In this document: positions 16,384 through 21,324 of the stretch, in pieces
How the letters are laid out: every line of letters starts with the position of its first letter
Numbering within the stretch: the stretch's first letter is position 1
DNA from: a virus
Strand: one strand, 5' to 3'
DNA length: 25,445 nucleotides
IMG/VR virus record: IMGVR_UViG_3300025585_000151
Span: 1-25,445 of that record
Position numbers and translations under genes: made by a program
The notes under the pieces: model-generated
Told to the model about the DNA's origin: nothing
Seen by the model: the letters and a program-made list of their open reading frames with translations, nothing else
Databases searched by the model: none

Positions 16384-19300
16384 ATGACCAAGGAACAGCG
16401 CGACTGGCTGATCAAGAACAACCTCGATCCAGAGGTCTACGACATCGACGCTGAAGGCAACGTCTTCGAGAACCCCATCATGGGAAAACTCGAAGCCGGT
16501 GCCAGATCGGCTGCCGCCAGTCTTGTTCCTGCTGCTGGCGGGTTCGGAGGTGGTGCAGCGGGTGCCGCAATTGGTGCCCCGCTCGGACCGCTTGGTGTGA
16601 TCGCAGGCGGTTTGATCGGTGGTCTTAGCGGATCTTTTGGGGCCAGCAAGATTCAAGAAGCAGCACTTGAAAAATACTCCCCAGAGACGCTTGAGAAGCT
16701 CTCCCAAGCACAAGAAGAGCAACCTGTCGCCTCATACGCTGGCGGATTCCTTCCGACTGCGCTGACACTCCGCCCCACAACCAAGGGGCTTAGTGGCCTA
16801 CTCAGACCCGCTGCTCGCCAAACCACGCTTCGAGAAGCGATCTCAAAGCCTGAGTTTGTCGCCCCTGCTTCCAACGTTGCCATCAACGTGGGCCAAGCGG
16901 CTGCTGGTCAGGCGTTAGACGTTTCTCAAGGAGCAGAGTTTTCCGGCCCTCGAATGGCCGCTGATATTGCTCTTGGAACTCTGTTCTCTCGCCCGACTCG
17001 ATTGGGCAGGAAACTGGGGCTTCCTGACATTCCCGAGGATGCTCCGGTCCAACAGTTGGATTTGGATCGAGCCAGATTCATGGCACAACCACCAGAGGAG
17101 TTTGTCACTCCTCGTGAGGAACGTCTCGGTGTTGGGCGCGAAAAGGTTGCCCCGGAACAATTCTTCGGAACTGAGACCGAGCAGCGCAATCGCCCCATCA
17201 GCGAAGAGCGGATGGCAAAGCAGTACGCTGATTGGTGGAAGTCCGAGACCGAACCCACGACAACGCTCATCAAGCAGGCCGCTGACAGCGTGAAGGTGAA
17301 GCTGCCCCGCGAGAGGATTTCTGAGTTGGCCAACGATCCTGAGGTGGCTCGCGTCATCTCGGACCCGACAACGCTTCCAGAGTTCGTTCAGAACCAATAT
17401 CAGCAGGCTCTTGAGGACGCCTACGATCAGGTGCGTCAGAAGAGGGCTATGGCAGAGCGTTTCCTCACCGCAGAGGAACGCGCTGACATTACCAAGATGG
17501 AAGAGCTTCGGGCTGTTACCGAAGAGCCATTCAAGGCTGAAACTGCTGCCGTAAAGACCGCCCAAGACATTTACGATAGCCTCTACACCCGCTTACAACG
17601 CCAAGGCGAAGGAGCCAAGATCACCCAAGCGGACATCGACGCCGCTGCTCAGATCGCTGCTCGCCGCAATCTCAAGATCGAGCTGGATCGGGCCTTTGCC
17701 GGCGACCGCGAAGTGCGCGGGATGTACTTGGTCAACAAGGACGGAGATCGCGTTGTCCGGGTCAATCCGCTGATGGCGACCCCGGATACCGCCATCCATG
17801 AAATCGGTCACGACATCTTCAGCGGAGTCACCAATCCATCGATGCGGAAGTCGCTCCTTGAATCCGCTCAGGACAGCCCCGCTTATCGCAGTGAGCTTGC
17901 GGCACGACAGGCCGAAGTTGATCAAGGAAGACTGACGCAAGAGCAGGCCAACAACTACGCGCTCGAAGAGGGCTTGATCCAATCATTCGGAGAGCAAGCT
18001 CCGAGTATCAAGCGCAGCGAGATCAGATCTTGGTTCAAGGCGGTGAAGGCTTCGACCAAGCAGCTATTCACCGGCAAGATTTCGCCCGAGGATGCTATCG
18101 CTTGGCTCCATTACGCATCTACCGAATCAGTTCCTTGGAAGGGTGTTGCTGCCCCGAAGGCTCGTGAGGAGAGGATGCAGAGAGAGCAGCCGCTTCAAGA
18201 AATCTCATCGGCTGAGACTTCTCTGGCTCAAATCCCAGCAGTCTTCAAGAGCAAGACCTTTGTTCCTCGTGGAACAAACATAGACATAGGTGCAGGAAAA
18301 TTTGATTTGGGGAAACAGTACCTAGAAAGCGAACGGGGTGTCTCCGAAAGTGTTCCGTTCGATCCATTCAATCGCAGCATTGAATCCAATCGGATGGCAG
18401 TTGAACGCTTGCAGTCAGGCGAACGATTTGGAACCGCTACAATCCCAAATGTACTAAACGTAATCGCTGAAGCATCTGCGCGAGACAACGTAATCTTGCA
18501 GGCAGCACGAGCGATTGAACCAGAAGGGGTTGCTTACTTTCAAATCTACGAAGGTGATCGATCTGGTATTGGCCGCAAAACATCAAAAGGGTTTCAGAAC
18601 AACAAGAAGACTTCGGATTATGTAAACGAAGTCGGAAATCACTTTGATAACGTAAGATCGACAGGGAACATCATTGTAGCAACCGGCCCCAAGCCATCTG
18701 ACAGAAAAGCATTCTGGCAGTTATCGCCAGATGCAGCCGGACCATCTGTTCGCTTTCAACGCGGAGAGGAGGACGCTACCCGCAAGTTCGCTGAGCGTGT
18801 CATCGCTTCCGAAGAAGTACCGGCTGAGGTTCGCCGTAGAGTCGCTGAATCTCCGCTGATCAACTACAAGCGGCAGAACGTGGCCGACGCCGCAGAGACC
18901 GCTTCCACGCTCAGCGATCGGCAGCTCACCTCGGACTCGTTGGACGCCAAATCCAACACTCGGGTCATCTCCAGCATGGAGCTGTTCAACCGAGCGATTC
19001 GCGCTGGTGACTTCTCCGGTGCTTCCGAGATCGCCGTTTCCATGGCGAAAGAAGGCACCACTTGGGGCCAGCTCATCAACCAGTTCAAGCTCCTCAAGTC
19101 GGCCACTCCAGAGGGTGTCATCCAACTGGTCTCGAAATCGCTCGAACAGAAGAAGCGCAAGCCGATGACCCAGGCACAGGTCACCGCGCTGACCGATGCG
19201 ATGAACCAGTATCGCGCCGCGAGCGATCAGGTCACCGCAGCGAAACGAGCGGCACGAGACGCCATCGATGCCAACAACGAGGCCGCGATCCAGCAGGCAG

Positions 19301-21324
19301 CCAAGCAGTTCGACTTGGCCAGCGCAGTCCAAGGTCAAGCCGATGTGGCGATGAACGAGCTGATCAGCAGGATCAACCCGTCGAGCGCAGCCGATCTGTT
19401 TGTCTCAATGGTTCAAGGATCGGTCATGTCACCGATCTCCATCGTCAGGAACGTGGTCGGAAACATCATCAACGCTCCTCTTCGTGACGCTTCAGATGCC
19501 ACAGCGGCAGCAATCGACTCCGCTTTGTTTGGCGGCAAGAACTCCAGTTACAACTACCGCGCTCGCAGCATTGAGCGACTCAACGCCTTCGCCAAGTCGT
19601 TGCCGCAGGCAGCAAAGATCCTGCTCAAGGGTTCGGACGCGATGCCTTACGAACTCGGCACCGACATCGGCAATCCGCTGAACTTCACACGCGCATGGCG
19701 CAACCTCTACGAGGCCATGTCCGGTCAGTACGAGGGCGCACCCATCGCTCGCAACATTGTCGAGGCCACCCTTGGGGCAATCCCCGATGTCTTCCTTCGA
19801 CTCACGCAGGCCACCGACGTTCCGTTCCGTGCAGCCGAGCGAGCCAGAATCATCACCGAGGTGGGACGCCAGCGCGGTCTTTCAAAGTCCCAGATCGAGT
19901 TGGCCAAGCGTGACCCCAAGCTCCTGCGGATCACCGACGAGCAGGCTCAGGCTGGTCGCAAAGGGTTCACCGAAGACGATCTCGGACTCATCGAGTACGA
20001 AGCCGCAAAGGCCGTGTTCCAACAGGACAACGCTGCCACACGCATGGTCAGCGGAATCAACCGCTTCATCAAACAGGAAGGCGGACCAGTGGCCTACGTC
20101 CCCTATCGCCTCATCTCGCTCTTCCAGAAAACCCCGATCAACGTAGCCGCAGAAGCCCTGTCATTCACCCCAGCCGGCGTCCTTCGCAACTGGAAGGACA
20201 TGACCGTGCGTGAGCGCGAGATCGCCACTTCACGACTCATCATCGGAGGAATCGTCACAGGAGCTTACGCTTACCTCTACGACAAGGGCGTCATCACCCC
20301 GAACCTCGATACCCCCGGAGAAACCAACAAGGCTCGTGAGCTGGCAAAGGCTGGCGGCGTCATGCCTCCAGGCACACTCAACGTAAGCGGCCTCCGACGC
20401 CTCGTCCGTGGAGAAAGCCCAACCTTCCAGCCGGGTGATACGGTCAAGGATCTCTCGGCCCTCGGAACTTCCGGCGCACTTGGCATGATGGTCGGAACAG
20501 CCAAGCGTCTCCAAGAGCGCAGCCCCACCGATGACCCTGACTTCCTTGCTCTCGGCAAGGGCGCGGCTCTCTCAGGCATCAACTTCGTGATGGAGCAGCA
20601 GTTCCTCAAGGGCACCAGCGACTTCATCAAGCTCCTCTCGCAGGAATCCGGCTCCGCACTCGACCGATTCGTGAAGAGCCTGTCGGTCACAGCCGCTTCT
20701 CCGGTCGCCCCAGCCATCCTCGGTGCGGTGCGCCGGGTTGAGCGCGAGAACCTCCCGGCCATCGGCGGTGAGGGCTTCATCAAGGATACGGTCAACGAAC
20801 TCAACCAGCGGTTCGCGGCCATTGGCCTACAGATCCCCGGCACCCGCGATCCAAACGCCATGCCGGTGCGCCGAGACCTCTGGGGAGAACCCGTCGAACA
20901 GACTCCCAAGAGCGAAAACCCGTGGATCTACAACTTCTTCAGCGCAGCCAAGAGCCGCCAGATCGATGCGGACCCGCTCAACGCCACGCTCTACTCCATC
21001 TGGCGTCGAACCGCCGACAACCAGGTCATCCCGTCGGCCATCAACCCCAAGATCACCTACAAGGGGACAACCTTCGAGCGCATGACCCCGGATCAGTACG
21101 ACCGTTACACCCAACTGGTCGGGTTCTATCGGCGCAAACTGGCTGAAAGAGCCTACCTCAGCGGCCAGTTCCAGCAGCGCGGAGATGAAGTCCGCATCAA
21201 CCTGATGAAACGCGCCTACGACAAGGGTCTGGAGATCGGAAAGTACCGTTTCCTCAAGGAATTGCGCGAATCCGGCCAGTCCCTGACACCTCAGGCAGGT
21301 CGCCGGGGCTTCACCGCAGAATAA
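16384..21324 (+). CDS. Giant polyvalent ejection protein with metallopeptidase motif and methyltransferase-like domain
   Basis: 1646 residues, the last structural-type gene. Visible order: a Gly/Ala-rich hydrophobic stretch at about residues 43-88 that could insert in membranes; a charged helical region; HEIGHD at about 472-477, the zinc-binding HExxH motif of metallopeptidases; a methyltransferase-like domain at about 623-786 (DIGAGK 634-639, DPFNR 660-664, NVLNVI 689-694); long helical segments; and a C-terminal region with a hydrophobic LIIGGIVTGAYAYLYDKG stretch near 1284 and a RQIDADPLNATLYSIWRR motif near 1520, which I associate with LPD38-type 'large polyvalent protein' domains. Such proteins enter the cell with phage DNA. 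It may take the role of a T7 gp16-like core protein; no transglycosylase motif is recognised. Leader without Shine-Dalgarno (GACGAAATAAC). Confidence 0.8.
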   Translation: MTKEQRDWLIKNNLDPEVYDIDAEGNVFENPIMGKLEAGARSAAASLVPAAGGFGGGAAGAAIGAPLGPLGVIAGGLIGGLSGSFGASKIQEAALEKYSPETLEKLSQAQEEQPVASYAGGFLPTALTLRPTTKGLSGLLRPAARQTTLREAISKPEFVAPASNVAINVGQAAAGQALDVSQGAEFSGPRMAADIALGTLFSRPTRLGRKLGLPDIPEDAPVQQLDLDRARFMAQPPEEFVTPREERLGVGREKVAPEQFFGTETEQRNRPISEERMAKQYADWWKSETEPTTTLIKQAADSVKVKLPRERISELANDPEVARVISDPTTLPEFVQNQYQQALEDAYDQVRQKRAMAERFLTAEERADITKMEELRAVTEEPFKAETAAVKTAQDIYDSLYTRLQRQGEGAKITQADIDAAAQIAARRNLKIELDRAFAGDREVRGMYLVNKDGDRVVRVNPLMATPDTAIHEIGHDIFSGVTNPSMRKSLLESAQDSPAYRSELAARQAEVDQGRLTQEQANNYALEEGLIQSFGEQAPSIKRSEIRSWFKAVKASTKQLFTGKISPEDAIAWLHYASTESVPWKGVAAPKAREERMQREQPLQEISSAETSLAQIPAVFKSKTFVPRGTNIDIGAGKFDLGKQYLESERGVSESVPFDPFNRSIESNRMAVERLQSGERFGTATIPNVLNVIAEASARDNVILQAARAIEPEGVAYFQIYEGDRSGIGRKTSKGFQNNKKTSDYVNEVGNHFDNVRSTGNIIVATGPKPSDRKAFWQLSPDAAGPSVRFQRGEEDATRKFAERVIASEEVPAEVRRRVAESPLINYKRQNVADAAETASTLSDRQLTSDSLDAKSNTRVISSMELFNRAIRAGDFSGASEIAVSMAKEGTTWGQLINQFKLLKSATPEGVIQLVSKSLEQKKRKPMTQAQVTALTDAMNQYRAASDQVTAAKRAARDAIDANNEAAIQQAAKQFDLASAVQGQADVAMNELISRINPSSAADLFVSMVQGSVMSPISIVRNVVGNIINAPLRDASDATAAAIDSALFGGKNSSYNYRARSIERLNAFAKSLPQAAKILLKGSDAMPYELGTDIGNPLNFTRAWRNLYEAMSGQYEGAPIARNIVEATLGAIPDVFLRLTQATDVPFRAAERARIITEVGRQRGLSKSQIELAKRDPKLLRITDEQAQAGRKGFTEDDLGLIEYEAAKAVFQQDNAATRMVSGINRFIKQEGGPVAYVPYRLISLFQKTPINVAAEALSFTPAGVLRNWKDMTVREREIATSRLIIGGIVTGAYAYLYDKGVITPNLDTPGETNKARELAKAGGVMPPGTLNVSGLRRLVRGESPTFQPGDTVKDLSALGTSGALGMMVGTAKRLQERSPTDDPDFLALGKGAALSGINFVMEQQFLKGTSDFIKLLSQESGSALDRFVKSLSVTAASPVAPAILGAVRRVERENLPAIGGEGFIKDTVNELNQRFAAIGLQIPGTRDPNAMPVRRDLWGEPVEQTPKSENPWIYNFFSAAKSRQIDADPLNATLYSIWRRTADNQVIPSAINPKITYKGTTFERMTPDQYDRYTQLVGFYRRKLAERAYLSGQFQQRGDEVRINLMKRAYDKGLEIGKYRFLKELRESGQSLTPQAGRRGFTAE
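18250..18741 (+). other. AT-rich segment encoding the embedded methyltransferase-like domain
   Basis: Within the giant gene, this 490-base stretch encodes a SAM-methyltransferase-like fold: DIGAGK (motif I loop), the acidic DPFNR at the end of the next strand (motif II), NVLNVI (motif IV region) and EGVAYFQIYEGDRSG (later strand). GC falls to about 48% (18301-18360) and 37% (18601-18660) against about 63% at 19201-19260, so the domain looks inserted from elsewhere while the frame stays open. I recall this D-[IV]-G-[AG]-G-K...DPFNR-type domain in other phage polyvalent proteins. The target of any methylation is unknown. Confidence 0.65.

Follow-up and report, generated by a model that had tools for sequence, protein, structure and literature searches.

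A mobile methyltransferase cassette in the exchange slot of a giant phage protein, with a likely role as an injected early-infection effector

The giant gene and its modules

The window, by which we refer to the whole 25,445-base stretch of DNA that was analysed, is a virus record and probably a fragment. Portal and major capsid genes were recognised, followed by tail-like genes, a giant gene, and then genes for an ssDNA-binding protein and a helicase; the virion genes upstream of the giant gene were recognised in part only. Among isolated phages, no close DNA relatives of the window were found. The giant gene and the modules of its product are arranged as follows:

16384..21324, + strand: gene for a giant multidomain (polyvalent-type) protein of 1646 aa carrying the cassette (ORF and translation; orthologues L100-L140)
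17551..18183, + strand: metallopeptidase-like module, aa 390-600, with HEIGHD at 17797-17814, kept in orthologues
17590..17601, + strand: junction peptide RLQR, aa 403-406, before the metallopeptidase module
18172..18183, + strand: junction peptide RMQR, aa 597-600, at the slot start
18184..18750, + strand: exchangeable cargo cassette, aa 601-789 (edges from orthologue alignments and from the end of homology to L001)
18205..18699, + strand: class I SAM-methyltransferase domain, aa 608-772 (family alignment, AlphaFold2 model, PDB fold matches, and Pfam Methyltransf_23 in relatives)
18751..18762, + strand: junction peptide RFQR, aa 790-793, at the cargo end
18763..21321, + strand: conserved C-terminal module, aa 794-1646 (alignment with relatives; mostly helical prediction)

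The C-terminal module of the giant protein has 41 relatives among viral contigs (L100-L140) and shows 59-83% identity across 19 relatives in an alignment. AlphaFold2 predicted it to be mostly helical, with a pLDDT of 48 that is too poor for a fold search, and a PDB sequence search returned zero matches. The HExxH motif of the metallopeptidase-like module was found in 28 of the 28 orthologues that carry this module. Since the module matches neither Pfam nor the PDB at the sequence level, its assignment as a peptidase is motif-based. The module recurs in another family of giant proteins, whose C-terminus differs, and some relatives of the window protein (L100, L102, L107, and others) have a different N-terminal module that lacks HExxH.

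Two further observations concern the N-terminal half of the protein. A viral contig fragment (L147) encodes 193 residues of the metallopeptidase-like module that are identical to those of the window, and it stops before the slot. Moreover, aa 40-110 (16501-16713) are Gly/Ala-rich and give weak matches to tail-lysin and other phage profiles (phrog_1047, E 2e-6); this segment is possibly membrane-active, or the matches could reflect composition only.

The methyltransferase domain and its family

An earlier note on this DNA had proposed a methyltransferase-like domain at 18250-18741, based on DIGAGK, DPFNR, NVLNVI, and EGVAYFQIYEGDRSG in the order of a SAM-methyltransferase fold. All four were found in that order within the frame of the 1646-aa ORF, and the translation runs uninterrupted through the AT-rich stretch. 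The domain is thus real, but larger than the note had drawn it, as its conserved part begins with SSAETS (18205) and the exchanged cassette extends from approximately 18184 to 18750. The conserved elements are the following:

18283..18300, + strand: SAM-binding motif I, DIGAGK (DIGGGK in the family; in-frame translation and family alignment)
18361..18375, + strand: DPFNR, with the invariant acidic residue that ends beta-2 and an invariant R (family alignment)
18448..18465, + strand: NVLNVI after beta-4, at the motif IV position, with invariant L and N (family alignment)
18523..18609, + strand: EGVAYFQIYEGDRSG...FQNNKK, beta-5 and a conserved loop or hairpin, with an invariant Q (alignment and AlphaFold2 model)

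In the last of these, EGVAYFQIYEGDRSG itself spans 18523-18567, and the beta-5/loop region with its invariant Q is the probable substrate side. In an alignment of 71 family members, 9 residues are invariant (D27, G29, G31, D53, R57, N62, L84, N85, and Q131, counted from residue 608), and a loop reading YEG..SG.G..T..GWQNN.KT is conserved; agreement of this extent greatly exceeds what chance would give. The window copy keeps all 9 invariant residues. It departs from the family at 2 near-invariant positions (G30 to A and D76 to G), with motif I glycines 29 and 31 kept.

The domain has a methyltransferase fold. AlphaFold2 modelled the window copy with a mean pLDDT of 93.8 and a pTM of 0.90, predicting strands at 24-28, 48-52, 75-81, 104-113, 147-153, and 156-162 with helices in between, i.e., a Rossmann-type alternating alpha/beta core. 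The listed Foldseek matches in the PDB are SAM-methyltransferase-fold proteins (best E 1.6e-5), and the best structural alignment by VIA-align was obtained with Trm9 (Z 13.4 over 143 residues, rmsd 3.1). Many methyltransferase families are tied within 1 Z of this value, so that the fold is clear and no substrate is singled out; most of the fold neighbours are methyltransferases of RNA or small molecules. A glycine-rich motif I and an acidic residue closing beta-2, as expected of class I enzymes, are invariant across the 71 sequences (D27, G29, G31, and D53). The domain shares its Rossmann-type fold with Trm9 and other class I methyltransferases, but it differs from the Trm9 type in that its model has 6 main strands with none predicted between the post-beta-2 helix and the NVLN strand; identity to Trm9 is 13%, and a Trm112 partner was not seen. 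As a Rossmann-type core was found and the motifs are conserved among homologues, neither of the two observations that could have contradicted the earlier note speaks against it.

The window copy itself matches no Pfam or NCBIfam methyltransferase model, and the methyltransferase assignment therefore rests on its relatives and on the model. Pfam Methyltransf_23 matches 65 of the 71 relatives (best 2.5e-9). PHROG 14016, a 215-aa family listed as of unknown function, matches 65 of the 71 members as well, the window copy with an E of 3e-7 over the first half of the profile only; it represents the same domain family, to which a methyltransferase fold is assigned here. More distant are two families linked to defence. 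TIGR04096, a DNA phosphorothioation-associated putative methyltransferase, matches 24 of the 71 relatives, but the best value of 2e-5 lies below the family cut-off (150 bits, for a model of 478 positions), and the window copy gives no match at E<=10; TIGR04096 is thus a distant relative and not the same family. Similarly, mad2 of the MADS system in PADLOC matches 26 of the 71 relatives at no better than 1.9e-7. In 99 genomes, zero TIGR04096 members above the cut-off were found, and our literature search returned no paper giving a function for MADS mad2 or TIGR04096.

Selection on the domain was assessed against its closest relative (L001, 81% identical), which yielded a dN of 0.12 with saturated dS, indicating strong purifying selection. 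We consider it very likely that the domain is catalytically active.

With respect to distribution, a profile-guided scan confirmed 198 viral loci (80 kept) compared to 8 in 84,980 species genomes, a ratio that is indicative only because the second scan, of the genomes, used somewhat stricter patterns. The broad alignment was too diverse for a pattern search, and a tighter one served for this purpose. A single-sequence scan of genome contigs returned zero relatives, and the sole match of a profile search in 148 genomes of one phylum was the genome on which the search had been centred. Relatives are found in viral contigs, a 485-kb uncultured phage, and Vibrio and Photobacterium plasmids, as well as more distantly in Vibrio phages such as KVP40. 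Most members lie inside ORFs of 1000-3900 aa; the others, fewer in number, stand alone or belong to short proteins. In L047, the methyltransferase is flanked by ART-PolyVal and LPD39, and a helicase module lies upstream; the giant proteins of L063 and L003 also contain ART-PolyVal, and the L001 host protein gives helicase-type ATPase matches. Giant hosts bearing ART-PolyVal, LPD39, and helicase domains are polyvalent proteins.

Among the plasmid-borne relatives, that of the 136-kb Vibrio sp. SCSIO 43009 plasmid (L011, 3992-4531) is a solo gene with 34% identity, upstream of several hypothetical genes and a PAAR-domain gene. On 2 Vibrio plasmids of approximately 0.9 Mb (L010 and L014), the methyltransferase forms the C-terminal part of a 341-aa protein, and its N-terminal part looks similar, on visual comparison, to a 155-aa ORF that lies separately near the solo gene in the viral contig L033.

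An exchange slot bounded by junction peptides

Residues ~601-789 constitute an exchange slot. Orthologues align to the window protein at residues 1-608 and ~788-1643, and between these segments they have 0 to ~239 aa that are unrelated to the window's, or none, with edges that are sharp in the alignments. In 6 of 30 distinct contexts the slot is empty (...EQRFQRGEE... without cargo); an empty slot may represent either the ancestral state or the outcome of a deletion between the two junction repeats. The commonest alternative cargo, present in L103, L121, and others, is an ~230-aa cargo without a Pfam match. In L106, L110, and L132, the cargo is ART-PolyVal, with scores that reach or exceed the Pfam gathering threshold, and L136 carries a further domain of 181 aa. 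Among the contexts examined, the methyltransferase occupies this slot in the window only. It may be added that the ~230-aa cargo of L103 and its relatives has a conserved IPSDINTWTQVGFNPDRHSYFYDR...GGDEAVQIGNTVFVK stretch that is partly common to the L136 cargo.

The closest methyltransferase relative, that of L001, resides in an otherwise unrelated 3517-aa protein, and homology stops at the slot edges. When the whole 1646-aa protein was compared with 10 domain-carrying records, only the domain region matched. The edges derived from orthologues coincide with the end of homology with L001 (QPLQEI...GPSVR), and this agreement of two independent boundaries is the best evidence that the whole cassette is the exchanged unit. 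The earlier suggestion that a domain had been acquired as a cassette is thus supported, both by orthologues lacking the domain or carrying another and by the unrelated protein in which its nearest relative is found.

The composition of the cassette differs from that of its surroundings. The earlier note was right in kind about an AT-rich stretch, as GC is 0.461 for residues 623-771 compared to 0.577 for the whole gene, and GC3 is 0.41 compared to 0.65, but its range of 37-48% was slightly low, with 150-nt windows across the domain giving 43-53%. Essentially no stretch of equal length in the gene is poorer in GC than residues 623-771: the minimum, 0.452, belongs to a stretch that starts a few codons upstream, and the mean is 0.577 (sd 0.041). 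For the cassette as a whole (aa 601-789), GC is 0.471 compared to 0.592 in the flanks, and in each of the 24 contexts with an occupied slot the cargo has a lower GC than its flanks (mean difference -0.100); these contexts do not amount to 24 independent events because several are close relatives.

An insertion was also observed among the relatives that have the other, HExxH-less N-terminal module. L137 differs from L102 by an inserted ParB_N-like domain of ~117 aa (aa ~627-743; 25.6 bits, with a cut-off of 26.3), the flanks of which are 95% and 89% identical to L102. Its GC is 0.376 and its GC3 0.22, in a gene of 0.56, and this insertion is apparently recent. Furthermore, in the other giant-protein family that shares the metallopeptidase-like module (L157, L160-L166), the slot holds a single cargo or two, and every cargo terminates in ...RYQR.

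The slot and its modules are marked by short peptides. Across the 30 contexts, 83 occurrences of R-[FYLMT]-[QS]-R were counted, compared to 5.9 expected from shuffles, a figure that is descriptive because the pattern was written after the junctions had been seen. The informative part is the confinement to module edges across the 30 contexts, as each of the 83 motifs precedes the metallopeptidase module or marks the start of the slot or the end of a cargo. An empty allele has one motif at the slot, a single-cargo allele two, and a double-cargo allele three, each cargo adding one. The codons differ between the positions (mostly CGG/AGG...CAG AGG at the slot start and CGY TAY/TTY CAA CGN at the cargo end), and the constraint therefore appears to act on the peptide rather than on the DNA.

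P1 DdrB and DarA are reported to be processed proteolytically before packaging, and peptidase domains of this kind have been proposed to act autoproteolytically; by analogy, the R-x-[QS]-R junction peptides would be natural candidate processing sites. We tentatively raise the idea, which we regard as rather unlikely on present evidence, of a modular effector polyprotein, from which the embedded metallopeptidase or another protease frees each effector at these sites. Relatives with the other N-terminal module have a single motif in a total of 11,778 aa, off the junction, but this comparison is confounded because the junction region of these HExxH-less proteins is not homologous. Across all giant hosts of the domain, R/K-[FY]-[SQ]-R is not enriched (10 compared to 11.3 expected, and 16 compared to 12.2). 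A [VILMAE]-x-[FY]-[SQ] tail follows the domain in 8 of 56 cases against a background of 2.5%, to which we give little weight since the pattern was chosen once the tails had been seen. Outside the lineage, HExxH showed no association with junction-like motifs (Fisher p = 1.0), which counts against a general rule.

Possible substrates and a role early in infection

The giant protein combines unrelated conflict-type domains with shuffling (the HEIGHD module, the methyltransferase, and the allelic ART-PolyVal), as do polyvalent proteins, which mix peptidase, ART, helicase, ParB, and methylase domains (Iyer et al. 2017, PMC5512222). The alternative cargo ART-PolyVal (PF18760) is likewise shared with the polyvalent proteins of phages and plasmids. 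Most of the methyltransferases treated in PMC5512222 are DNA adenine methylases of the EcoKI/TaqI-like type with NPP(Y/F), whereas the domain described here has NVLN and belongs to another class.

Furthermore, enzymatic domains are swapped between ejection proteins of short-tailed phages (T7 gp15/gp16; PMC8954989), and the giant gene, like theirs, comes after genes for capsid and tail. Gene order and architecture fit an internal virion protein that is ejected with the DNA, as described for T7-like phages and N4 (PMC8954989, PMC5512222). No sequence or structure match of the giant protein to T7 gp16 was found, the model of its C-terminal module being of too low quality for a fold comparison. 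Position and size suggest ejection by analogy, and together with the architecture they make injection of the giant protein from the virion moderately probable.

The overall reading that we consider likely is that of a mobile methyltransferase cassette in an exchange slot of a giant protein that is injected and acts as an early-infection effector. The AT-rich stretch is a mobile cargo cassette encoding a compact SAM-dependent methyltransferase, held between the metallopeptidase-like and conserved C-terminal modules with R-x-[QS]-R peptides on both sides, a slot that related phages fill with other effectors (an ADP-ribosyltransferase and others) or leave empty. The computations show the fold, the family, the slot with its replaced cargoes and empty alleles, the AT-rich cargo, and the junction peptides, while catalytic activity, packaging and injection, substrate, and a counter-defence role are inferred from them. 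The giant protein would most likely be packaged and injected along with the DNA. As one of several interchangeable effectors, the methyltransferase could then act within minutes of the onset of infection, its target being a component of the host or a nucleic acid, nucleotide, or protein related to defence, and it would take the early place that ADP-ribosylation may have in phages with the allelic cargo. That one slot exchanges enzymes whose chemistry is unrelated suggests that the effectors face changing selection, and this would fit counter-defence; we give a role in counter-defence or host takeover an even chance.

The earlier note had left the target open as DNA, RNA, or a protein, and the evidence disfavours DNA as far as amino-methylation of bases is concerned. 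Methylation of a small molecule, a signalling nucleotide, or a host protein, blocking a defence or metabolic pathway, is a reasonable possibility, albeit short of probable: among Pfam families the generic Methyltransf_23 comes closest, TylM1, ToxA, GSMT, and CypM are among the fold neighbours, and the conserved YEG..SG.G..T..GWQNN.KT loop suggests one specific substrate, yet such folds are common to many substrates.

Modification of RNA such as tRNA or rRNA, which would protect translation from infection-triggered RNases or reprogram it, seems unlikely. Trm9, a tRNA U34 methyltransferase, heads the VIA-align results (Z 13.4) and is also the top PDB profile match, although not significantly (E 0.07), and MnmM matches 3 members weakly. 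Sugar and small-molecule methyltransferases are nevertheless tied with Trm9 within 1 Z unit, and the domain has no attached RNA-binding domain.

That the domain is a DNA base methyltransferase shielding the incoming genome from restriction, in a DarB-like manner, is quite improbable. Among polyvalent proteins, the methyltransferases established so far are DNA adenine methylases (PMC5512222), and the distant cellular relatives, TIGR04096 (24/71) and PADLOC mad2 (26/71), are DNA-modification-linked defence families. However, NVLNVI follows beta-4 where (D/N)PP(Y/F) would be expected, in the window copy as in nearly all 71 members, which disfavours amino-methylation of DNA bases; in addition, ~165 aa leave no space for a target-recognition domain, and the fold neighbours chiefly act on RNA or small molecules.

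We assign a similarly small probability to a degenerate methyltransferase fold that serves as a binding module or decoy, as might be suspected from the two near-invariant positions at which the window copy deviates, since the SAM-motif D, glycines 29 and 31, the beta-2 D, and indeed all 9 invariant residues are retained under strong purifying selection. Finally, the notion that low GC merely reflects amino-acid composition in a domain native to the protein can practically be discounted: K, N, and F residues are abundant and lower the GC, but GC3 drops from 0.65 to 0.41, orthologues have no domain or others at the same edges, unrelated cargoes share the same composition shift, and the closest relative lies in a different protein.

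Domain shuffling in polyvalent proteins and mosaic ejection proteins were already known. The available portion of PMC5512222 contains no description of a fixed exchange slot that has empty alleles and a junction peptide, and within the literature surveyed, the methyltransferase fold of the family, its frequent occurrence in giant phage proteins, and the defined AT-rich slot with empty alleles and a junction peptide appear to be new. A large phage family (PHROG 14016), carried mainly in giant phage proteins, is hereby given a methyltransferase fold, and the empty and alternatively filled alleles show the exchange of effector domains inside a single conserved gene. If the polyprotein idea were true, a new cargo would become functional simply by bringing its own C-terminal site. 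Moreover, the slot can serve as a finder, as any occupant is a candidate injected effector with bounds set by a short peptide motif. With slot and motif defined, the function of the methyltransferase can be tested directly, as can the assembly logic of polyvalent proteins.
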